Shown here: positions 13,213 through 23,934 of the stretch, piece by piece
Layout of the letters: each line of letters begins with the position of its first letter
Numbering within the stretch: the stretch's first letter is position 1
DNA from: Stieleria varia
Lineage (GTDB): Bacteria > Planctomycetota > Planctomycetia > Pirellulales > Pirellulaceae
DNA length: 64,000 nucleotides
Direction of reading: 5' to 3'
NCBI RefSeq assembly: GCF_038443385.1
Contig: NZ_CP151726.1
Coordinates: 1,860,001 to 1,924,000, forward strand
Notes under the pieces: model-generated
Seen by the model: the letters and a program-made list of their open reading frames with translations, nothing else
Told to the model about the DNA's origin: nothing
Database searches by the model: none
Position numbers and translations under genes: made by a program

Positions 13213-14448
13213 CTAACCGATTCTTGGCCGCGGGAGAATGGTATTGTGCCCAAACCGATCTTCACCGTGCACCTGCATGCAACCAATACCGTCCTTGGCG
13301 AACTGGTGATCGCCTTCAGGGGTAGTGAATATGTCTCCATCGTGAACGGCGGTTACTCTGACATCGTTCGTGGTGTACCGCCCCGCGAGGGCCAGCCTGG
13401 TTTCTGTAGCTGTGATGTTTGGGTAGGAGGCATGCATGTTCATTGAAGTGAAGATGACGCACTGCCCAGCTTTCATCTCGATGTCCTCGATCACCGCATG
13501 TTCGAACAGGTCGGGAATCCTCTTCACAATGACATCAAACAGAAACTGAGCCTTGGTGAAGTTGCCCGTCGTGTGTTTCATGGCCCAAACTCCGTTCATC
13601 AGCTCCTCGTAGGAAAGTCCACGAAGTGCGCCGAATTGGTTGTCAAATAGTTCGTATGCCATCCGTTCAAAGCGACCATCTTCAAATGAGCATGGAAGAA
13701 ATCTCAGGCAACCATTGGCGACAGCACTGTCCGTCAGCGCCACCCACGCGGTCAATTGCACAAGACTCGGGTCGGTATCCGCGGCGGGAACAAGTTTCTG
13801 AGCCTTTGAGTTCTCTCGAAATGTCCCCGTCTGATGCCAGAACGTTCCATCGGCGCCTGGCTTCTTTTCGAAGAATTGCGAGCGCCACAAGATGAGGTCA
13901 TCGCCGAGCAGGCTTGCCAATCGATGCGTGATTGCTGGATGGTGGAGGACCGCGGCAAACTCCGGAAACCGTAGTGCTTGAAACATCCCGCTGTAGTTGA
14001 TCGACCACAGGCCAGCCCGGCGCATAATCGGAGCAATCTGATTGCCGATCAGGATTTTCCCGTCAAAATCGTTTTCATGGAGGTCCTCAGCACGATGGGA
14101 AAGGGCCGCCGAATCTTCCGTACTCAACACATCGAATGGACCAACGATACCTGTTTGTTCGAATGCCGCTACGTCTTCTCGTGACAGATAGAAGCCGCCC
14201 TTGGTCTCTGCAAATGAGGAGCCCTTCGTTTGAACCTTGAATCCGCGTGCTTCGCTAACGGTCGACGTAACCTGCCGCCATCCCGCAAGTTGTCGAATCT
14301 GAACGAACTGCTTCAACAGAAGGGCGAGCACCGCGCTACATGTCAAGCGAAGCTTGGTACCTCGCGAAAGCTGGCAACGACGTCGTTGGTCTCCGATCGG
14401 GACAAAGCCACGTAGCATTTCTAAAACGACTTCGTCACGATTACTCAT
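13213..14448 (-). CDS. SyrB2-like Fe(II)/2-oxoglutarate enzyme (chlorinating-enzyme/PhyH family), 411 aa
   Basis: Residues ~88-411 follow the SyrB2-type chlorinating-enzyme pattern: FWHQTGTF (His205), LTAWVALTDSAVANGCLRFL, then MKAGQCVIF...MHASYP (His339) and TRLALAGRY (candidate 2OG-binding Arg351/357). In hydroxylases the first motif is HxD; in SyrB2-type halogenases the Asp is Ala or Gly so that chloride can bind iron. Here the position is Thr207, so the carboxylate ligand is absent. From family knowledge this favours a halogenase-like site, but Thr is unusual and could also mean an inactive protein. The start overlaps the halogenase stop as ATGA at 14445-14448, giving an ~85-residue N-terminal extension of unknown role. 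It is the last gene of the operon. Likely substrate: the tailored acyl chain or its amide. Confidence 0.8.
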   Translation of the reverse strand: MSNRDEVVLEMLRGFVPIGDQRRRCQLSRGTKLRLTCSAVLALLLKQFVQIRQLAGWRQVTSTVSEARGFKVQTKGSSFAETKGGFYLSREDVAAFEQTGIVGPFDVLSTEDSAALSHRAEDLHENDFDGKILIGNQIAPIMRRAGLWSINYSGMFQALRFPEFAAVLHHPAITHRLASLLGDDLILWRSQFFEKKPGADGTFWHQTGTFRENSKAQKLVPAADTDPSLVQLTAWVALTDSAVANGCLRFLPCSFEDGRFERMAYELFDNQFGALRGLSYEELMNGVWAMKHTTGNFTKAQFLFDVIVKRIPDLFEHAVIEDIEMKAGQCVIFTSMNMHASYPNITATETRLALAGRYTTNDVRVTAVHDGDIFTTPEGDHQFAKDGIGCMQVHGEDRFGHNTILPRPRIG

Positions 14449-15511
14449 CGCGCGTGCGCCATTTGCTTAAGAAGAGCATAGTGATCTGGCATCGACGACG
14501 CGACGGTTGCGTTTTTAGCATGAATCTCATTCAGCAACGCATCGCCTTGTTCATAGCCGACGTGTTCAACAAGTGGATTCGGCACCGTCGGCAGCATTCC
14601 ACACCCATCGAGAATGCACGTGTAATTGAATGCCCAAAAGATAGAGAATCTCATGTCGTCAAAAACCGGAAGGTTGCTCTTGAAGAACTCGAGTTTGCAA
14701 TTGAGTGAATCTGGGACGTCGGTCTCGTTAGCAACTGCATTCCAAAAATCGGTATCCCTTCGCCAAGGGCATCATTTAAAAGTAGCCCGCGAAAACCGGT
14801 GCAATCGATGAACAAGTCAGCCGAAAGGCGGTTTTCTTGCTTGGTTTCGACGGCTGTGATAAACCCATTTCCCCCATGTTCAACGTTTGTGACGTGGCCC
14901 ACCACCCGTTTTACCCCACGCTTCGTCGCCACTTGTCGAAGAAATTCCCCCAGTCGTGTAACGTCAAGATGGTAAGCATATTCCTGGCTGAGTTCAGGCA
15001 TCAATGGATTTATGGGTGCCTTGTGCTGTTCACAAAGCGACTGGGTCGGAAGCAACATTTGCTGAATTGCTCGCGACTCTCCGTCTAAGCGATGCTTCAA
15101 CGCGTAATGCAGCAGCGATACACGTTGTCCGATTCCCATCGCGAAGGGGCAATGGTAGGGAAGCACTGACGGTTCAGGTCGGGAAATAAATGGATGCCAG
15201 TATTCGTGCGTGGCCCCGCCTGGACCGCAAGTGCACCAATTCACGAACTTGATCGCCGATTTGTATGTAGCTCCGACCTCTGGCATCCAATCCGAATCAC
15301 GGAACCCGAGAAATCCCATTGTCAGCCGCAGGGACGGAATCGTTGCTTCTCCCACGCCGATTGGGCCGATCGCATCGGATTCCACGACTGTGATGTGAAC
15401 GCTGCCCTTAAGCGCTTGATTGAGGTAGGCAGCAGACAACCATCCGGCGGTACCACCACCTACAATGACAATTCTATCTATTGGTTCGAAAGTGCCAGTG
15501 TATGACGTCAT
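14445..15511 (-). pseudogene. Flavin-dependent (tryptophan-halogenase family) halogenase with internal deletion and frameshift
   Basis: The start is the ATG at 15511, overlapping the oxidase stop (ATGA) with GGGAG ahead. The N-terminal ~250 residues are a PrnA-type FAD domain: IVIVGGGTAGWLSAAYL, GVGEATIPSL, and YKSAIKFVNW, whose Lys matches the catalytic lysine region, through to DCTGFRGLLLNDALGE. Near 14760 the frame changes and the text becomes RDTDFWNAVANETDVPDSL, the C-terminal part of the same family, running to 14445. About 150-180 residues are missing, including the WxWxIP motif and the region of the catalytic Glu. As read, translation would stop at 14651, and either product should be inactive for halogenation. 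The operon context says it once worked with the oxidase and the SyrB2-like enzyme. Confidence 0.82.
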
Positions 15512-17127
15512 CCTTCGTATCTCCCTGGTGCTATGACACGATTCGGATCCCAGAACGCTTTCAATTCCTGCATGACCTCCGATTGATCCGCTGTCCTGGA
15601 AGGGCCGTGGTCCATGGAGTCCACACCCAAGCGTATCGGAAAGTAGCCGTTGTTTACTAACTCTGAGTTTGTTCTGTGAAAGCAACGCGACGCGGTCGCA
15701 TCCTGTCCGGCTTGAGTTCGGTCGTACACCAGGCAACCCAGCATTCGCACGTGTCGTCCGGAACAGAATGCCAACGCGACATTGTCTTCAAACCCGCATG
15801 CGGAGAAATGCCGCTTCACGATCTCCGTTGCCCGAAGCACATCGTTGGCGCGGTTCGGCAACTCATGACAAAGCCACCTGACCCCACATGCGTCACGATG
15901 CGGATCGACGTCATCTGGTGCGGAAAACGTCTTTCGCCAATACAGACTTTTTAGGGCACCCGTCGTCGGATGACCGAGGAACACGGACCGCTTAAGAAGT
16001 GCTTCCACGACAGCAGAATTCACATTCTGCCGCGAACTGACCAACCGTTTGATGCTACCGAATGCATTCAGTGCCCAAACACGCCGGTCATCGAGGAGCA
16101 TGAAACGATTGCAGGCAGGTTTAATACGAGACTTTAGATAGGACTTCTTCGCTCGGCCGACCGCGGACGAACCAGACCCCACCCCGCCAAAAAGCATCCA
16201 TTTCATTCCGCGAAATGGCCTACCAACGGAGCCGACCCATTCTTCGATATCGAGTTCGCCCGTACGGGGATTTGGATGTTGACTCAAGGCGGCAGCAAAT
16301 TTGGCAGCACTCCATATCGCCGCACTGTAGGGGGGAATGATTTGTTGCTTAATCAGGCATCGTAGTTCTTCAACACAGTTGCGCAACTGTGACTCCGAAG
16401 TGATCACAGCAACGAAGGAAAAGAAGTCTCTTGGGGTTGGTGTCAACCAAACAGTTGATTCTGTTACAACACCGAAATTTGATTGAAAAAAAAGTCCGTC
16501 GAGCGAGGGTCCGACGCCCCAATTCGTAGTGGATGACAGCGTCGCGGATGGATCCATTTGACTGAATCCAGTACGTACGATCTTGGAACGCCCCGTTACA
16601 ACGGTTAAGTTGCAAATATGACGTGGTCGTTCTCCTGATGGGCCGAGCCCAGTTCCACGTTCTAGACAATTCCCAAGAACACTCGCATCAGGCGGACCAC
16701 CGCCGACTGCCAGATAATGAGTCGCGGCAATCTCTTGTTGGTAATCATAAACCTGTTGAAACGTTACACCGGGTTGCAGGGTGACGTATCCGAGTTCATC
16801 GTTGAACTCAATGATCCGATTCATCCGCTGAAGATCCATCAGCACGCAATCCGACTGGACCGGAACCTTTGAGCCCAGGCCCCAGTTCCGCCCGCGGCTG
16901 ATGGGATAGATCGGCGTGCGGAACTCATTGGCGATTTGGACGCACCGCTTAACGTCCTCCGTGCTGCCCGGGTAGATGATCGCCGGAATCCGTTGATCGG
17001 TCGGGAACGTGCATTGCTCCGCCTCACGTCTTGCGGAATCAACGATCGTGACGTATTGATCGCCAAGCGCGACTGTCCAGGCGTCGATAGCACGTTTTAA
17101 GTGATCACTTGAGGTGGAGTGCATCAT
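15508..17127 (-). CDS. FAD-dependent oxidase of the VAO/4-cresol dehydrogenase type, 539 aa
   Basis: I chose the ATG at 17127 because it overlaps the desaturase stop (ATGATGA context) with GAGAGG ahead; the frame is open 18 codons further up. The FAD_binding_4 domain is clear: IYPGSTEDVKRCVQIANEF, SRGRNWGLGSKVPVQSDCV, MDLQRMNRI, and LQPGVTFQQVYDYQQE. This run is close to p-cresol methylhydroxylase flavoprotein. The C-terminus ends WDPNRVIAPGRY as in that family. Known members oxidise para-alkylphenols at the benzylic carbon, so a p-hydroxyphenyl substrate such as an N-acyl-tyrosine is a reasonable inference. Length is close to the family norm (~520). No partner cytochrome gene is adjacent. 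Confidence 0.82.
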   Translation of the reverse strand: MMHSTSSDHLKRAIDAWTVALGDQYVTIVDSARREAEQCTFPTDQRIPAIIYPGSTEDVKRCVQIANEFRTPIYPISRGRNWGLGSKVPVQSDCVLMDLQRMNRIIEFNDELGYVTLQPGVTFQQVYDYQQEIAATHYLAVGGGPPDASVLGNCLERGTGLGPSGERPRHICNLTVVTGRSKIVRTGFSQMDPSATLSSTTNWGVGPSLDGLFFQSNFGVVTESTVWLTPTPRDFFSFVAVITSESQLRNCVEELRCLIKQQIIPPYSAAIWSAAKFAAALSQHPNPRTGELDIEEWVGSVGRPFRGMKWMLFGGVGSGSSAVGRAKKSYLKSRIKPACNRFMLLDDRRVWALNAFGSIKRLVSSRQNVNSAVVEALLKRSVFLGHPTTGALKSLYWRKTFSAPDDVDPHRDACGVRWLCHELPNRANDVLRATEIVKRHFSACGFEDNVALAFCSGRHVRMLGCLVYDRTQAGQDATASRCFHRTNSELVNNGYFPIRLGVDSMDHGPSRTADQSEVMQELKAFWDPNRVIAPGRYEG

Positions 17128-18209
17128 TGCCGAACAACCTCTCTTGGTTGAGAAGATTCGTTCTCGTTGAAACGCTTCCATTCCTGCATTCCAGGCTTAA
17201 AATCCTCGATGAGATTGCATTGGCGAAGCACGCTGACCAGGTATCGGAACGTCAGTTTTCGCTCAACGATTCGATCTGGGTACGTCTCTTTCAAGTGCCG
17301 ATAGGCGAGTCTGAGGTTGTAGTGTGGAATCGCAGCACAGACGTGATGAGGAACGTGCCAGGAAATGTCATGATTCAGCAGATCAACCCACCACGGGTAA
17401 ATGACGTGGATCGAGCATTCCAAACTCGCTTTCTCCCTGGTCCAAACATCTGGTGCCATGAAGGTCACATCGGGTGTAGTGTGATGCAGCAGCGTGAACA
17501 GGCTGAGCCAGAAATGGAACACAAATTGGGGAATCACAAACAGCATCAAGAGCCCGTACCAACCCGCGATGAGATACGAAACGCTGGCGTACACGGCACC
17601 AGCCAGCGCAGTGATCAGGACTGAAAAGAGAACTTCACAATGCTCTTGACTGGAAAGCCCCTTTCCTCGGACATAATCGCGAACCACCGTAGCCGTGAAA
17701 ATGATGGAACCTAAGTAAAATAACCACGTGCGCGCATATCGATAGATCATTCGATCCAGCCACGCGAGACGTTTGTAGATGAAGCCCGGCGCTGGCTTCC
17801 ATGCGACTTCCTTGTGGACGTGATGCGTGTGGCGGTGATGCGTGTTGTGACTGAGCCGCCATATATGAAAAGGCCAAAGCACCCACGATGTGGTGATGTG
17901 CCCAATGAAGTTGTTCCAACGACGTGAGCGGCAGAACGATCGGTGACCGGCATCATGCCCCAGAATGAACAAACCTGAGAGCACGGTTCCCAAAACACAC
18001 GAGATGGGAACCGCAATCCACCAAGATTGCGCCCATAGGATCGCGGTGACACAGAGGCCAATCAGTAGCCAATCCCAAACGAGCCAGGCGAACGCCTTGC
18101 GATAATTCCGTTGGTAACACTCTCGAGGAATCGTACGGAGTATCTGTTGCAGCGTGATCGGTTCGTCCCGAGCAATCTCAACAATCGAGACGCTTTGTTC
18201 AGCTTGCAT
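17124..18209 (-). CDS. Membrane fatty acid desaturase (FADS type), 361 aa
   Basis: Three His boxes are in the usual order: HDAGHRSF, HNTHHRHTHH and HVPHHV, the last two flanking paired transmembrane helices (e.g. LSLFTLLHHTT, VLWPFHIW). This box spacing fits the delta-12/omega-3 type of di-iron desaturase rather than the stearoyl-CoA type of its two neighbours. GGGAGG precedes the ATG at 18209, which overlaps the previous gene by 11 bases. It should act in the cytoplasmic membrane on an acyl-lipid or acyl carrier substrate. In FAAL/ACP contexts such enzymes can also form triple bonds, but the sequence alone does not show this. Confidence 0.88.
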   Translation of the reverse strand: MQAEQSVSIVEIARDEPITLQQILRTIPRECYQRNYRKAFAWLVWDWLLIGLCVTAILWAQSWWIAVPISCVLGTVLSGLFILGHDAGHRSFCRSRRWNNFIGHITTSWVLWPFHIWRLSHNTHHRHTHHVHKEVAWKPAPGFIYKRLAWLDRMIYRYARTWLFYLGSIIFTATVVRDYVRGKGLSSQEHCEVLFSVLITALAGAVYASVSYLIAGWYGLLMLFVIPQFVFHFWLSLFTLLHHTTPDVTFMAPDVWTREKASLECSIHVIYPWWVDLLNHDISWHVPHHVCAAIPHYNLRLAYRHLKETYPDRIVERKLTFRYLVSVLRQCNLIEDFKPGMQEWKRFNENESSQPREVVRQ

Positions 18210-19140
18210 CAGGACCTCCCACGATCTTGTCTGCTGCGGGAACTTTCACGTTCCAAGCCAAACCACAGAACTGCAGCAGGCGGATGACCAACCAGCCAAA
18301 ATCGAATTGCCACCAACGCAATCCAAACCGAGCTGATGTCGGAAAGGCGTGATGATTGTTATGCCACGATTCGCCGCAGGTCGGCACACAGATCAACGCG
18401 ACATTTCGGCTCTCGTCGCTGGTATGGTAACGTCTGTACCCAACAAAGTGACAGACGGAATTGATCGCCCAGATAAACTGGCTGGTTAGCGTCAATCGGA
18501 CCGCGCCAGTCCACAGTAACCCCAGCCAAACGGTTTGCCACGAGGGATCAAACGCGACCAATAAGGCAACTGGCACAAACAGCCCGACCAACATGACGCG
18601 GTAATAGTGTCGACTGAACCACATCAGGTCGGAATCTTTCAGGATGTCCGGTGTGTAGAACAACGGATTGGGCATATCGTGTTCCACCATCCAACCGCAA
18701 TGGGAATGCCAGAATGCGCGCAGCTTCGCCAATCCGCCTTGAGCCTCCGTCACCGGCGAATGCGGGTCACCTACATCATCGCTACAGTCATGATGTCGTC
18801 GATGCGTTGCGACCCAGGATGCAACGGGCCCCTGTCCGCCAATCGTGCCAAAAATCGCTAATATCAGCTTCACTGGTCGAGCGCACTCGAACGACCGATG
18901 TGTAAAGCAACGATGAAATCCAACACTTCCGCCGACTCCGAGTGTCAACGGCCACAGCACTACCAACGCAATCAACGTGGCAGGTGTCGGCGGATACCAA
19001 GGAAGTAACGCAAAAGCGATCAACGTTCCAATAAGCGGTAGAACGTTAACCAACAGAACGTGCTGCCTCTGATAACGCACAAATCGCCGCGCCGGAAGCG
19101 TCTTCTCGAAGCCATGTCCATCCGCGTTAACGGTGCTCAT
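18199..19140 (-). CDS. Acyl-CoA/ACP desaturase (stearoyl-CoA type), 313 aa
   Basis: His boxes HRCFTHRSF, HRRHHDCSD and HNNHHAFP, with four hydrophobic segments, identify a delta-9-type membrane di-iron desaturase. The SWVATHRRHH...GDPHSP stretch closely parallels the desaturase at 21156 (AWVAIHRRHH...GDPHSP), so the two are paralogues from duplication. The start forms an ATGA overlap with the ligase stop at 19137-19140. It presumably introduces a double bond in the chain carried by the cluster's carrier protein (inference). Confidence 0.9.
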   Translation of the reverse strand: MSTVNADGHGFEKTLPARRFVRYQRQHVLLVNVLPLIGTLIAFALLPWYPPTPATLIALVVLWPLTLGVGGSVGFHRCFTHRSFECARPVKLILAIFGTIGGQGPVASWVATHRRHHDCSDDVGDPHSPVTEAQGGLAKLRAFWHSHCGWMVEHDMPNPLFYTPDILKDSDLMWFSRHYYRVMLVGLFVPVALLVAFDPSWQTVWLGLLWTGAVRLTLTSQFIWAINSVCHFVGYRRYHTSDESRNVALICVPTCGESWHNNHHAFPTSARFGLRWWQFDFGWLVIRLLQFCGLAWNVKVPAADKIVGGPDAS

Positions 19141-20912
19141 GTGGGCACCTCCCTCGTGTTTTTCGGTGACACGATTTCAGGGTCTCCCTTGAACGGGACT
19201 CGGACAATGACATCCAGTGACTTGGCGAGGAAATGATTTCGACAGGCGCGACGGCGAATCTTTCCACTGGTTGTTCGCGGGAAAGTCCCAGGCCGGAGAA
19301 ATACGATTTCCCAGATATGCAAGTTCATGTTGTTCCAAACCGTTTGACGAAATGTGTCGATATCATTAGTCAATTGCTCAACATCTCCATGTCTCGCGTC
19401 TCGATATAATCCGCGCGACGTTTCCGCGACAACGACGACTTGTTCGCACGCGTCCACTTCCAAACCGAACACAGCCGTGCCATTCTTCACCGATGCGCTG
19501 ACAACCGCTTCAAATTCGGCTTCAATGTCCTGGGGGAACACGTTTCGACCGTTGACGATGACCAAGTCCTTGTGACGACCAGTCACGAATAATTCACCGT
19601 CATGTAGGAATCCAAGGTCGCCCGATCGCATGTACCGCGCGCCAGGATGATCGGGAATGGTCACGCCGAAGTCGCTGGCAGTCGCTTGAGGGTCATTCCA
19701 ATACCCTTTCGCGACGCTCGGGCTATCGATCAAGATCTCACCGATTTGGTCGTCAGCGGTGACTCGTGAGGTTTCAGGGGCAACAATTTGGACGTCACTC
19801 TCTGGATCAGGACGCCCACTGCTCACCAATTCCGTCGTATCTCCCGTGCCACCCTCATCGGAAAACAGAACGAGACCGCTTTCCAATGAACGCCGGTCGA
19901 GCCGCAAGCGGGGCGATTCAAAACCCGCTGGCCCGCCGCTGACAAACAACGTCGACTCGGCCAGCCCATAGCATGGGAAATGCATCGTGCTGCGAAAACC
20001 GATCCGACCAAAACGCTCAGTGAAGCGGTCGAGTGTGGATGCCCGAATCGGCTCGGCCCCGTTATACGCCACTTTCCAAGAGCTGAGATCAAGGCCGTCA
20101 AGCTCATCGTCAGCGATTCGATCTACGCAAACCTGAAAAGCGAAGTTTGGTCCACCCGTCACCGTGCCGCCGTATTTGCTGATGGCTCTAAACCACATTC
20201 CCGGCCGCGCGATGAAGTGGTTGGTCGCGAATATGACATTTCGGTACCCGACAAAAAGGCATTGCAAACCGCTGACCAGTCCCATGTCATGAAACATTGG
20301 GATCCACATCACACCAACACTGTCTGTCCGATTGCCGAACGCGTCCCGAATAGCTCGATTGTTGGCAACGAGATTTGAGTTTGTGATCATCACGCCTTTG
20401 GGAGTCGACGTGGACCCCGATGTATATTGTAGATAAGCAACCGAGTCAGGCTTGGCAAGACAAATTACATTCGGGGACTTCTCGCCACGAAGTTCTTGCA
20501 AAGCGATTATCCGCACGTCCGTAGATTGCGCCGCGATAGGATCGCGGTCGTTTTTATCGCACAGAACTGCAATCGGCTGACAATCGGACATCATCGCTGT
20601 GAAGCGATCATCTTGCCGATTGGTTCGCGGCGAATAGGCGGGCACCGCGATAATGCCCGCGTGCAAGCACGCAAGAAACGCTTGCAAGTAATCGATGCCG
20701 AATGGTAACGCCAACATCGCCCGCTCACCGCTCGGCACCTGCTCTCGCAGCGCTGTTGACAATTGACGCACTCCACGAGCCAACTCGGCGAACGTGCACT
20801 GTTGTTCAACCGCTTCGTCGCGTCCAAGCAACGAGCATGCGATTGCGTCCCCCTGCGATTGTTCGTGCGCAAAGATAGCGTCAAGAATGGTTGCGATGTG
20901 CGACTCAGGCAT
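19137..20912 (-). CDS. Fatty acyl-AMP ligase (FAAL), 591 aa
   Basis: An ANL-superfamily enzyme: P-loop YTSGSTSTPKGVMI (~residues 163-176), the FAAL-typical GGPNFAF, YGLAEST, SGDLGFLHDGELFVTGRHKD and C-terminal RTTSGKIRR with the adenylation lysine. The NGRNVFPQDIE sequence and overall length fit FAALs, which activate free fatty acids and hand them to an acyl carrier protein rather than to CoA. GGAGGG lies five bases before the ATG. It overlaps the carrier-protein gene by eight bases, which supports that protein as partner. Confidence 0.9.
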   Translation of the reverse strand: MPESHIATILDAIFAHEQSQGDAIACSLLGRDEAVEQQCTFAELARGVRQLSTALREQVPSGERAMLALPFGIDYLQAFLACLHAGIIAVPAYSPRTNRQDDRFTAMMSDCQPIAVLCDKNDRDPIAAQSTDVRIIALQELRGEKSPNVICLAKPDSVAYLQYTSGSTSTPKGVMITNSNLVANNRAIRDAFGNRTDSVGVMWIPMFHDMGLVSGLQCLFVGYRNVIFATNHFIARPGMWFRAISKYGGTVTGGPNFAFQVCVDRIADDELDGLDLSSWKVAYNGAEPIRASTLDRFTERFGRIGFRSTMHFPCYGLAESTLFVSGGPAGFESPRLRLDRRSLESGLVLFSDEGGTGDTTELVSSGRPDPESDVQIVAPETSRVTADDQIGEILIDSPSVAKGYWNDPQATASDFGVTIPDHPGARYMRSGDLGFLHDGELFVTGRHKDLVIVNGRNVFPQDIEAEFEAVVSASVKNGTAVFGLEVDACEQVVVVAETSRGLYRDARHGDVEQLTNDIDTFRQTVWNNMNLHIWEIVFLRPGTFPRTTSGKIRRRACRNHFLAKSLDVIVRVPFKGDPEIVSPKNTREVPT

Positions 20913-21159
20913 GCTTTCCCTCCACTACGGCAATCAGCTTGGGGACTAGCGCGTCGATCGTCTTCGCAGAGAACATCAAATCTGATTCGATAGGAACTTC
21001 GAGGAAGTTCTCTAGCTCTGAGGCGATCGCCACAAGTGTCATTGAGTCGATATCGAGTCGGTAGAACGGACTGTTGGTGGAGATGGTGTCCGGCGAGGTG
21101 CCAGTGATCTCAGCGACACGTCCGACAAGGAATTCTTTGATTTCGCTGGCGTTTTTCAT
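20905..21159 (-). CDS. Acyl carrier protein, 84 aa
   Basis: A single four-helix carrier domain with the 4'-phosphopantetheine attachment serine at Ser39 in LDIDSMTLVAIASELE. Acidic helices and length match stand-alone ACPs. It starts in an ATGA overlap with the upstream desaturase (21156-21159) and ends inside the ligase start, so the two are translationally coupled. It is likely the dedicated carrier of the acyl chain in this cluster, distinct from the housekeeping ACP, which would sit with fatty-acid synthase genes. Confidence 0.9.
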   Translation of the reverse strand: MKNASEIKEFLVGRVAEITGTSPDTISTNSPFYRLDIDSMTLVAIASELENFLEVPIESDLMFSAKTIDALVPKLIAVVEGKHA

Positions 21160-22118
21160 AGTCGCTTGGAAACTCGATGCTGATTGACAGTCCTTGCGAG
21201 TCCGCAGATTCGCAGAAAGAAAATAAATACGTATCCGACATCAAGTTGCCACCAGCGAAAGCCGAAACGCGCGGAAGTAGGATCAGCATGATGGTTGTTG
21301 TGCCAAGATTCACCCAACGTAGGCAGTGACAACCATACATTGTTGCGACTGTTATCGCCCGTGTCATAGGGTTGAACGCCGATTGCGTGGCAGATCGAAT
21401 TGATGGTGAAAATCAAGTGTGATGTTACAAACAGCCTAACACCACCGGCCCACAGTGCCACAAGTAGGAATTCGTGGAATGACACGCTTGAGATTCCAAA
21501 GACCGCTGCCGGGAGGAACACACCAGCCAAGACCAGCGGAACATAGAATCGACTGCAGAAAATCAACGCACGGTCGCGAAGCACATCGGGTGCGTACACC
21601 AAAGGATTTGGGACATCGTGCGTGCTCAGCCAGCCAACGTGTGCGTGCCATAGCCCCCTCAAAAATCGCCAGTTACCCGATGTCAGTGCGGGTGAATGCG
21701 GGTCGCCATCGACATCGCTGCGCTCGTGATGCCGACGATGAATGGCCACCCACGCACTGGCAGGTCCTTGTCCCGCCATTGAGCCTGCAACGGCCAGCAT
21801 CCAGTGAACCGAGCCACTAGTCGCAAAGCTGCGATGCGTGAACAAACGGTGATAACCAACGGTGACTCCCAGTCCGGTGACAAACCAACCAGCAAATGCC
21901 AAGTACAAATGCGAAAGTTTTGGTGGATACCAAAATGAAATTGCAACCGCGATCAGGGTCGCAATGGCGGGCAAGATGTTGAATAGGAGCACATGCGTTC
22001 GGTGTTGACGTCGAAACGACCGCGATGGCAGCACGCGAGGAATTCCGTCGCCTTGAAACTCGTGAAGTTTCGTCGCCGCCTGCCGCGAGACTTCCGATTG
22101 ATCACGTGTCCGACTCAT
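21156..22118 (-). CDS. Acyl-CoA/ACP desaturase (stearoyl-CoA type), 320 aa
   Basis: His boxes HRLFTHRSF, HRRHHERSD and HNNHHADP with four membrane helices. I chose the ATG at 22118 since GAGG stands six bases ahead; an in-frame ATG at 22154 lacks a ribosome-binding site. It overlaps the N-acyltransferase gene by 17 bases at the start and the ACP gene by ATGA at the end. It is a paralogue of the desaturase at 18199. Predicted to act in the membrane on the bound acyl chain. Confidence 0.9.
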   Translation of the reverse strand: MSRTRDQSEVSRQAATKLHEFQGDGIPRVLPSRSFRRQHRTHVLLFNILPAIATLIAVAISFWYPPKLSHLYLAFAGWFVTGLGVTVGYHRLFTHRSFATSGSVHWMLAVAGSMAGQGPASAWVAIHRRHHERSDVDGDPHSPALTSGNWRFLRGLWHAHVGWLSTHDVPNPLVYAPDVLRDRALIFCSRFYVPLVLAGVFLPAAVFGISSVSFHEFLLVALWAGGVRLFVTSHLIFTINSICHAIGVQPYDTGDNSRNNVWLSLPTLGESWHNNHHADPTSARFGFRWWQLDVGYVFIFFLRICGLARTVNQHRVSKRL

Positions 22119-22839
22119 TTGATACCTCGCTGTTGACCCGTGCATTTGGATCATGAGTCAGAAACAATTCCACTGTGGTTGGGTATCCAGTTCGATACAA
22201 TCCAGGATGCCCCTCTCTCCAGTAGCCAGGGTACTCGTCGAATAGTTTGCCATGTTCCTCGTTCAACTGAATTCCCGCCGCCTGGACCACGGGAACGTAA
22301 CAATAGTGCTTAATAAACATGGCGACGTGAAGCGGTAGCACCGCCCAAAGCTGATTGTATCCGTACTGTTCGAGTAGCAAATGCGACGCATTGTGCAGTC
22401 GGCGAAACACTGTGATGCGTCGCAAAACGGCTTCGTCCGTGTTTCCGTCACAAGTGTCCGAGTAGGCGAAGCGACAAGACTCTGCAGCAATCCGTGCATC
22501 AAAGCCACATTCAGAAAACGAATCCCACCCAACATCAGGCGTGAGCAATTCCATGAATTCCAGTCGATGAGTTACTTCGTTCCTCAAACGAACCGATGCC
22601 GTACCAAGCGCTTGAACTTTCGAGTGATTTGAGGTGGCACCAACTGCAAGCAACACTCGGCTGGACCTTAGGGAAGACGCGAAGTATGAATGCGAACGAT
22701 CATGCGAGAGTGATGGCGCGTAGAGTTTGATGTATTGGCGCACACACATCCTGATCGCCAAATCCAAGAGTTGCGGGCGCGTCGTGACGTCAATAACCCA
22801 AACATCCTCCGGAGGCATCATCGTTTCCCAAGTCGACAT
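22102..22839 (-). CDS. GNAT-fold acyltransferase, FeeM/autoinducer-synthase-like, 245 aa
   Basis: The order of elements fits the FeeM/LuxI-like branch of GNATs, which take acyl-ACP as donor: an N-terminal RMCVRQYIKLY helix, GTASVRLRN strand, AAESCRFAYSD (the strand with conserved E-x-x-R), a LHNASHLLLEQYG helix, and LWAVLPLHVAMFIKHY. The C-terminal EYPGYWREGHPGLY is unlike ordinary acetyltransferases. FeeM makes N-acyl-tyrosine from acyl-ACP, so N-acylation of an amino acid is my preferred role, stated as inference. It is the first gene of the operon and has only a weak ribosome-binding site; ATGs at codons 7-8 are alternatives. Confidence 0.6.
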   Translation of the reverse strand: MSTWETMMPPEDVWVIDVTTRPQLLDLAIRMCVRQYIKLYAPSLSHDRSHSYFASSLRSSRVLLAVGATSNHSKVQALGTASVRLRNEVTHRLEFMELLTPDVGWDSFSECGFDARIAAESCRFAYSDTCDGNTDEAVLRRITVFRRLHNASHLLLEQYGYNQLWAVLPLHVAMFIKHYCYVPVVQAAGIQLNEEHGKLFDEYPGYWREGHPGLYRTGYPTTVELFLTHDPNARVNSEVSNESDT

Positions 22840-23304: not shown

Positions 23305-23934
23305 ATGACTCTCCAGCCAGCATCGGTCAGCCTGCTCCTGCAGCAGTTGAAGACCGGTGATGAATTCGCCTCCACCGAAATCTGGAAGCGCTACATCGAG
23401 CAGTTGTTGCCGCTGGCCCGTGAGAAGTTGAAGGGGCTGCGAAGTAGTTGCGCTGACGAGGATGATATACTGCTGTCGGTCTTCGATCGTTTTTTTCGAG
23501 CCGTGAAAGAGGAGAGGTTCGCACACCTGCAGAATCGAGAAGACCTTTGGCAAGTCCTGCTGGTGTTAACGGACCGACGTATTGCTGACCAGTTTCGAAA
23601 GTCACATGCCCAGAAACGTGGTGGCGGGAAGATTGTATCTCTCGATGATGTGATCCTCAGCGAATCAACTCACTCGGACAATTTGATGGAGCTTGCTGAC
23701 CGAGGTCCAACGCCTGAATTCGCGACCGCCTTTGCGAATCAACTTGAAGTTGCCCTCGAACGACTTGATGAGGGATCGAGTCGCGAGGTGGCGGTGTTGA
23801 GGATGGAGGGATATAGCACGAAAGAAATCGGCGAGCAGCTTGGCATCAGCCTCAGTGCCGTCGAACGCAAACTGCGAATGATTCGAGACGTATGGAGCGA
23901 GATACTCGGGCAAGACCCTGACGCGGAAAACTGA
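23305..23934 (+). CDS. ECF-type RNA polymerase sigma factor, 209 aa
   Basis: Region 2 (residues ~20-95) shows the ECF pattern with DEDDILLSVFDRFFR, DLWQVLLVLTDRRIADQFRK, and region 4 (~145-200) ends with a helix-turn-helix: LRMEGYSTKEIGEQLGISLSAVERKLRMIR. The linker between is about 40 residues. Planctomycetes carry large ECF groups located beside Ser/Thr kinases. The kinase gene here starts 27 bases downstream on the same strand, so the kinase is a likely regulator of this sigma factor. No separate anti-sigma gene is present. Confidence 0.88.
   Translation: MTLQPASVSLLLQQLKTGDEFASTEIWKRYIEQLLPLAREKLKGLRSSCADEDDILLSVFDRFFRAVKEERFAHLQNREDLWQVLLVLTDRRIADQFRKSHAQKRGGGKIVSLDDVILSESTHSDNLMELADRGPTPEFATAFANQLEVALERLDEGSSREVAVLRMEGYSTKEIGEQLGISLSAVERKLRMIRDVWSEILGQDPDAEN

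Follow-up and report, generated by a model that had tools for sequence, protein, structure and literature searches.

Here, we describe a compact gene cluster in Stieleria varia, located in a 64,000-nucleotide stretch of DNA (the window; G000:C1:1860001-1924000, part of a single contig of 9,719,866 bases, G000 being the genome that carries the operon). Nine overlapping genes form one operon, found in this genome only, in which a known acyl-modifying core, consisting of a fatty acyl-AMP ligase (FAAL), an acyl carrier protein (ACP) and three desaturases, is joined to a new combination of partners: a putative N-acyl amino acid synthase (NAS), an oxidase of the VAO family, a broken flavin-dependent halogenase and an Fe(II)/2-oxoglutarate (Fe/2OG) enzyme. 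We consider the chances about even that the product is an N-acyl, probably aromatic, amino acid bearing an unsaturated, perhaps acetylenic, chain; halogenation of this product is doubtful.

Results

The operon occupies positions 13213-22839 and comprises nine co-directional open reading frames (ORFs) on the minus strand. Five of the eight junctions are 4-bp ATGA overlaps (14445-14448, 15508-15511, 17124-17127, 19137-19140 and 21156-21159), and the remaining three are overlaps of 8 bp (ACP/FAAL), 11 bp (des2/des3) and, depending on the start, 17-53 bp (NAS/des1). All but one of the nine ORFs run without interruption. An original prediction of nine overlapping genes forming one operon, joined mostly by ATGA, is borne out in layout, the flavin halogenase that it counted as a whole gene being the part that failed. 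Pfam and NCBIfam matches among the nine ORFs identify the FAAL, the ACP, the three desaturases, a FAD_binding_4 oxidase, a Trp_halogenase and a PhyH/chlorinating-enzyme-like protein, and neither collection matched any of the nine to a thioesterase, polyketide synthase (PKS), non-ribosomal peptide synthetase, rubredoxin, ThiF or nitroreductase.

The predicted acyl-modifying core is upheld by these matches, by intact motifs (the desaturase histidine boxes, YTSGST..PKG of the FAAL and the DSM serine of the carrier) and by the phylogeny of the desaturases. The FAAL, the ACP and the DesA-type desaturases lie side by side, in the arrangement of an alkyne-type cassette. In a midpoint-rooted tree of 99 DesA-type desaturases, which includes neither the characterised JamB nor a characterised polyyne desaturase, a clade of 30 (support 0.995) contains des1 and des2 as sisters (support 1.0). 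A FAAL is encoded within 6 kb of 28 of the 30 clade members, or 26 of 28 when the two window genes are left out, and of 5 of the 69 desaturases outside the clade, including both DesA-type desaturases of Streptomyces Mg1, counts to be read with the caution that the loci were collected using an alignment built from such cassette desaturases and that short contigs may hide some FAALs. The third desaturase, des3, is nearest to NCBIfam models (DesA Delta5, DesB Delta10 and GntB) other than those of des1 and des2. A polyyne-like cluster on a plasmid of Streptomyces sp. Mg1, with the gene order thioesterase-FAAL-desaturase-desaturase-ACP-desaturase-hydrolase-rubredoxin-P450, has a third desaturase that is 30% identical to des3, and that Mg1 gene was the only ORF in 87 scanned loci to have des3 as its best match.

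Adjacency of FAAL, ACP and desaturase genes recurs in several phyla, accompanied in actinobacteria and Thalassospira by a methyltransferase, a P450 and a hydrolase, and in cyanobacteria and others by PKS genes. Because these partners differ between loci, the cassette is of a known kind with exchangeable partners, and the FAAL, ACP and des1/des2 of the window resemble, by sequence, this recurrent FAAL-linked cassette. Loci with des1-like genes were numerous, and among the best 80 of 587, which were named, 17 held a FAAL match above 200 bits, one a weak VAO match, and none a des3, NAS, flavin-halogenase or Fe/2OG match. In Burkholderia sp. TSV86 (L103:1736-12209) a FAAL-desaturase pair faces a further desaturase-methyltransferase-hydrolase set on the opposite strand.

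The first gene of the operon had been predicted to encode an N-acyltransferase of the GNAT type. No profile agrees with the latter label, as Pfam gave nothing for the protein up to E 5 and NCBIfam nothing up to E 0.001. Among 241 family genomes its only relative besides itself is a protein of G012 (25% identity, E 8e-7), and a two-row profile of the pair, searched against 392 phylum genomes, found only G000 itself. The G012 gene overlaps by 4 bp a gene for a 791-amino-acid ThiF-nitroreductase fusion (L065:9460-12632), which appears to be an OxzA-OxzB-like arrangement in a planctomycete. The acyltransferase OxzA and the ThiF-nitroreductase fusion OxzB of Pseudoalteromonas rubra specify acyl-tyrazolones; the model of OxzA shares the TyzA scaffold despite low identity, and FeeM is among the closest structural homologues of TyzA (PMC10404671). 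Additionally, the nitroreductase half of the G012 fusion matches genes in G208, G209, G210 and G211 (27-29% identity) that sit about 3-7 kb from FeeM-type synthases and make up four of its eight best non-self matches. This indirect gene context, drawn from one relative, is the best support for a role in N-acyl amino acid synthesis and suggests that the N-acyltransferase part of the prediction can be retained.

We considered whether the NAS-like protein is itself a FeeM and rejected this, profile comparisons being at noise level. The FeeM model PF21926 matched neither this protein nor anything else in G000, which alone among 14 genus genomes is without a FeeM match (G210 has three and G208 four). 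Profiles of NAS against FeeM gave E 0.33 and 0.23, an unrelated control 0.86, while two FeeM groups found each other at E 4e-18; in a decoy test the NAS-FeeM comparison ranked 11th (E 4.3).

By sequence, the oxidase belongs to the VAO/PCMH family, and PCMH/VAO-type enzymes are its closest solved structures. The phenolate-binding tyrosines of VAO, which we take to be Tyr108 and Tyr503, were used as reference positions in an alignment of the window enzyme (numbered on a 557-amino-acid ORF) with 18 relatives, G047 being left out. The Tyr108 position is Leu102 in the window enzyme, Leu in 6 of the 18 relatives and Tyr in the other 12, and the Tyr503 position is Ile516 in the window enzyme versus Tyr in all 18, the following Arg517 being kept. 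Since both expected tyrosines are absent, oxidation of a phenol by this enzyme is doubtful, and the earlier description of it as a phenol-type oxidase could not be sustained beyond its family. With midpoint rooting, the Leu-type VAOs do not form a single clade: four from the genus of the window enzyme cluster with it (support 1.0), and the remaining two are placed in other parts of the tree. One Leu-type VAO, in G210 (L053:5313-14532), lies beside a B12-radical-SAM enzyme, an O-methyltransferase, a kumamolisin-type S8 peptidase and an APH + HopA1-domain fusion, in what is presumably a class V lanthipeptide-type locus for a ribosomally synthesized and post-translationally modified peptide.

Of the VAO loci, 19 with the better matches were compared, some lower-scoring or second copies being left out; three of these are on contigs shorter than 6 kb. 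A FeeM-type synthase is present in six of the 19. In five of these, all from Pirellulaceae, the synthase and VAO genes share a strand and the end of the synthase gene lies 101-253 bp upstream of the VAO gene (Table 1), and in the sixth (L057) the two are within 5 kb; the VAOs of all six are of the Tyr type. Loci L202-L204 also hold a FeeM and a VAO gene and, having been chosen for this, stand outside the count. As VAO-type genes adjoin FeeM-type synthases in 5 of the 19 loci, N-acyl synthase and VAO are a recurring pair, and the window also joins an N-acyl synthase-like gene to a VAO gene, both divergent. Oxidative decarboxylation of N-acyl tyrosine is the reaction of FeeG (PMC8762209); in the chondrochloren pathway a FAD-dependent oxidative decarboxylase is thought to act via a quinone methide (PMC3039461). 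The pairs in the relatives are plausibly of this FeeM-FeeG/chondrochloren type, and we infer that FeeG and the chondrochloren decarboxylase are themselves VAO-family members.

The original prediction also held that two working halogenases take part. The flavin-dependent one is, by its sequence, a pseudogene, for its two halves lie in different frames and its centre is gone. The Trp_halogenase ORF aligns only to positions 1-233 of the 458 in the Pfam model and only to residues 5-251 of the 529-amino-acid halogenase 6UL2, and an 80-amino-acid stretch in a different frame corresponds to residues 463-531 of the 534 in the Trp-6-halogenase 6IB5 (E 2e-5). About 210 central residues are missing, the N-terminal half running straight into its own C-terminus (about 70 residues) in the other frame. 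Codon-usage log-odds, which are noisy, favoured frame 1 in 9 of the 12 segments whose starts lie at 15500-14840, and frame 0 in all five whose starts lie at 14780-14540. The flavin-halogenase homologues listed are mostly in open frames of about 500-640 amino acids, and G000 itself has a second flavin halogenase elsewhere, in an uninterrupted 575-amino-acid frame (G000:C1:5984955-5985704). The break may be an assembly error.

In Fe/2OG enzymes the iron-ligand position is Asp in oxygenases and Ala or Gly in halogenases. The best of the three solved-structure matches of the window enzyme are SyrB2 (E 2.5e-29) and CytC3, both with the motif HQA, and its score with TIGR01762 is 148 bits, below the 226-bit cut-off. 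Its own motif is HQT, with Thr at the iron-ligand position; among 30 aligned relatives from 31 other loci this residue is Asp in 22, Ala in five, Gly in one, Val in one, ambiguous in one and Thr in none. The enzyme thus appears to be without an iron-binding carboxylate, as halogenases are, and with so unusual a residue halogenation by it is uncertain. The idea that its N-terminal extension is a decayed carrier protein was dropped, as Pfam showed no domain there up to E 5. Two ORFs of L243 that adjoin an HQA-type relative were uninformative.

Relatives of the VAO, Fe/2OG and flavin-halogenase proteins (240 family genomes searched for each; 392 phylum genomes for chlorinating-enzyme matches) occur in the family or phylum, and none of the 20 + 9 larger loci around them held a second cluster gene at E 1e-3 or 1e-4. 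Homologues are therefore scattered in part, those of these three proteins being unlinked to other cluster genes in the loci examined, and to this extent the original prediction runs into the outcome that it had itself named as refuting it. A single-protein VAO search of the genome contigs gave no match. Eleven loci around FeeM genes held, besides VAOs, weak matches only: AMP-binding proteins that match the FAAL at 46 bits (L203) and 51 bits (L204), and a PhyH protein at 62 bits (L209). No described cluster of the same content appeared among the papers listed by searches of the openly licensed literature, in agreement with the original prediction. Coordinates are collected in Table 1; beyond the operon, a gene for an extracytoplasmic function (ECF) sigma factor starts at 23305 on the plus strand.

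Table 1. Genes of the S. varia operon and loci in relatives with neighbouring FeeM-type and VAO-type genes
Feature	Position	Strand	Basis
Putative N-acyl amino acid synthase (NAS-like acyltransferase), first gene	22102..22839	-	no Pfam/NCBIfam match; G012 relative
des1, DesA-type fatty-acid desaturase	21156..22154	-	PF00487; in-frame ATGs 22154, 22145, 22118
Acyl carrier protein, DSM motif	20905..21159	-	PF00550; motif
Fatty acyl-AMP ligase (FAAL)	19137..20912	-	PF00501 + PF23024; FAAL-type models, structures among top matches
des2, DesA-type desaturase	18199..19140	-	PF00487; 49% identity to des1
des3, desaturase	17124..18209	-	PF00487 + NCBIfam matches
VAO/PCMH-family flavin oxidase	15508..17127	-	PF01565; PCMH/VAO structures; likely start ATG 17127, ORF opens 17181
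Broken flavin-dependent halogenase, N-terminal part	14651..15511	-	Pfam 1-233/458; 6UL2 residues 5-251 only
C-terminal remnant of broken flavin halogenase, other frame	14445..14687	-	80-aa frame vs Trp-6-halogenase; codon usage
SyrB2/CytC3-like Fe(II)/2OG enzyme, HQT motif, N-terminal extension ~84 residues	13213..14448	-	TIGR01762, SyrB2 matches
FeeM-VAO neighbour loci	L058:6257-10127, L060:8306-10963, L063:7754-10603, L067:7977-10831, L068:9151-11635		

Discussion

For an operon that makes an unsaturated N-acyl amino acid, we propose the following sequence of events. The FAAL would activate a fatty acid and load it onto the small ACP, where the duplicated, FAAL-linked pair des1 and des2, together with des3, would add several unsaturations, possibly including a triple bond. 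The NAS-like acyltransferase would then transfer the acyl group from the ACP onto the amine of an amino acid, probably an aromatic one, and the VAO-family flavoenzyme would oxidise the N-acyl product. Modification of the carrier-bound chain by the SyrB2-like enzyme is also possible, and the flavin-halogenase step would have been lost in this strain.

Several observations weigh against this proposal. No profile links the NAS-like protein to FeeM, even its match to the G012 protein is modest, and its predicted model is of very low confidence (mean pLDDT 40), too poor for a fold search. The VAO lacks both phenolate-binding tyrosines, and none of the six Leu-type VAO loci, one of them on a 5.4-kb contig, contains an N-acyl synthase. 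A broken gene inside the operon may signify that the whole pathway is decaying, and the set is present in a single genome, which offers no sign of conservation.

Three other explanations have to be weighed. The FAAL, the ACP and the three desaturases might make a polyyne or terminal alkyne, the acyltransferase replacing a thioesterase for release. Polyyne clusters have these same five components, and an alkyne cassette has been reported in two Planctomycetes genomes (PMC8406139); furthermore, the one gene among the scanned loci that best matches des3 comes from the Mg1 plasmid cluster. We nevertheless think a polyyne-type cluster unlikely, for neither a thioesterase nor a rubredoxin match is present among the nine ORFs, and des1 and des2 are each other's sisters, in a clade that includes neither of the Mg1 DesA-type desaturases. 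It is similarly improbable that the operon is a decaying relic that makes nothing, or makes only an unhalogenated precursor. The deletion and frame change in the flavin halogenase, the HQT of the Fe/2OG enzyme, the Ile516 of the VAO where its 18 aligned relatives all have Tyr, and the failure to find a relative of the gene set in the family loci examined would all be expected of a relic, but the other eight ORFs are open, the desaturases, FAAL and ACP have all the motifs that were checked, and the overlaps have been retained even at the broken gene (14445-14448).

The least probable explanation, and in our view a very unlikely one, is the earlier proposal that both halogenases act and the pathway ends in a halogenated, unsaturated N-acyl phenol. 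The family matches of the genes agree with it, as does the halogenase-like want of a carboxylate ligand in the Fe/2OG enzyme; chondrochloren offers a precedent in the oxidative decarboxylation of an acylated tyrosine (PMC3039461, PMC8762209), and the second flavin halogenase of G000 might act in trans. Yet the flavin halogenase of the operon is broken, HQT is atypical, and the VAO is without the tyrosines that would bind a phenolate. Were our preferred reading, an unsaturated N-acyl amino acid, to prove true, one short operon would unite desaturation of a carrier-bound chain with N-acyl amino acid synthesis, and a new acyltransferase family would be added to the N-acyl amino acid pathways of planctomycetes, whose genes are often dispersed (PMC12479983).

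The operon shares features with several known systems. Like the jamABC-type alkyne cassette, it has adjacent FAAL, ACP and DesA-type desaturase genes; unlike jamABC, it has three desaturases, an N-acyltransferase and oxidases, and no PKS match, JamB lying outside the set compared. Polyyne clusters (caryoynencin, protegencin, cepacin) likewise combine a FAAL, an ACP and three desaturases, but they are defined by a thioesterase and a rubredoxin in addition, with exceptions noted (PMC8406139), and differ from the operon in this, as does the polyyne-like Mg1 cluster in the placement of its DesA-type pair outside the des1/des2 clade. The stieleriacine loci belong to the same genus, and an N-acylated amino acid is expected from both; those loci have NasY (FeeM), ThiF and nitroreductase genes (PMC12479983), whereas G000 has no FeeM match, and we therefore rejected identity with the stieleriacine cluster. 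Three NAS genes are described in S. neptunia and a region with four in S. maiorica (PMC12479983), and strain K23_9, S. varia and S. tagensis are described as being without nasY clusters, a loss of growth being mentioned for K23_9 (PMC12254169). With the oxzAB/tyzABC tyrazolone pathways the likeness lies in the sole relative found for the NAS-like gene, which overlaps a ThiF-nitroreductase fusion as in OxzA-OxzB; the operon differs in having a VAO and, among its nine ORFs, no ThiF or nitroreductase match. Finally, the operon pairs an N-acyl synthase-like gene with a FAD oxidase, as do the fee (FeeM, FeeG) and chondrochloren systems and the FeeM-VAO pairs of its relatives, although its NAS-like protein is not a FeeM by profile and its VAO is divergent at both tyrosine positions. 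The FeeM-VAO neighbours in the relatives offer a direct test of whether planctomycetes make aminovinyl phenols of the FeeG type.

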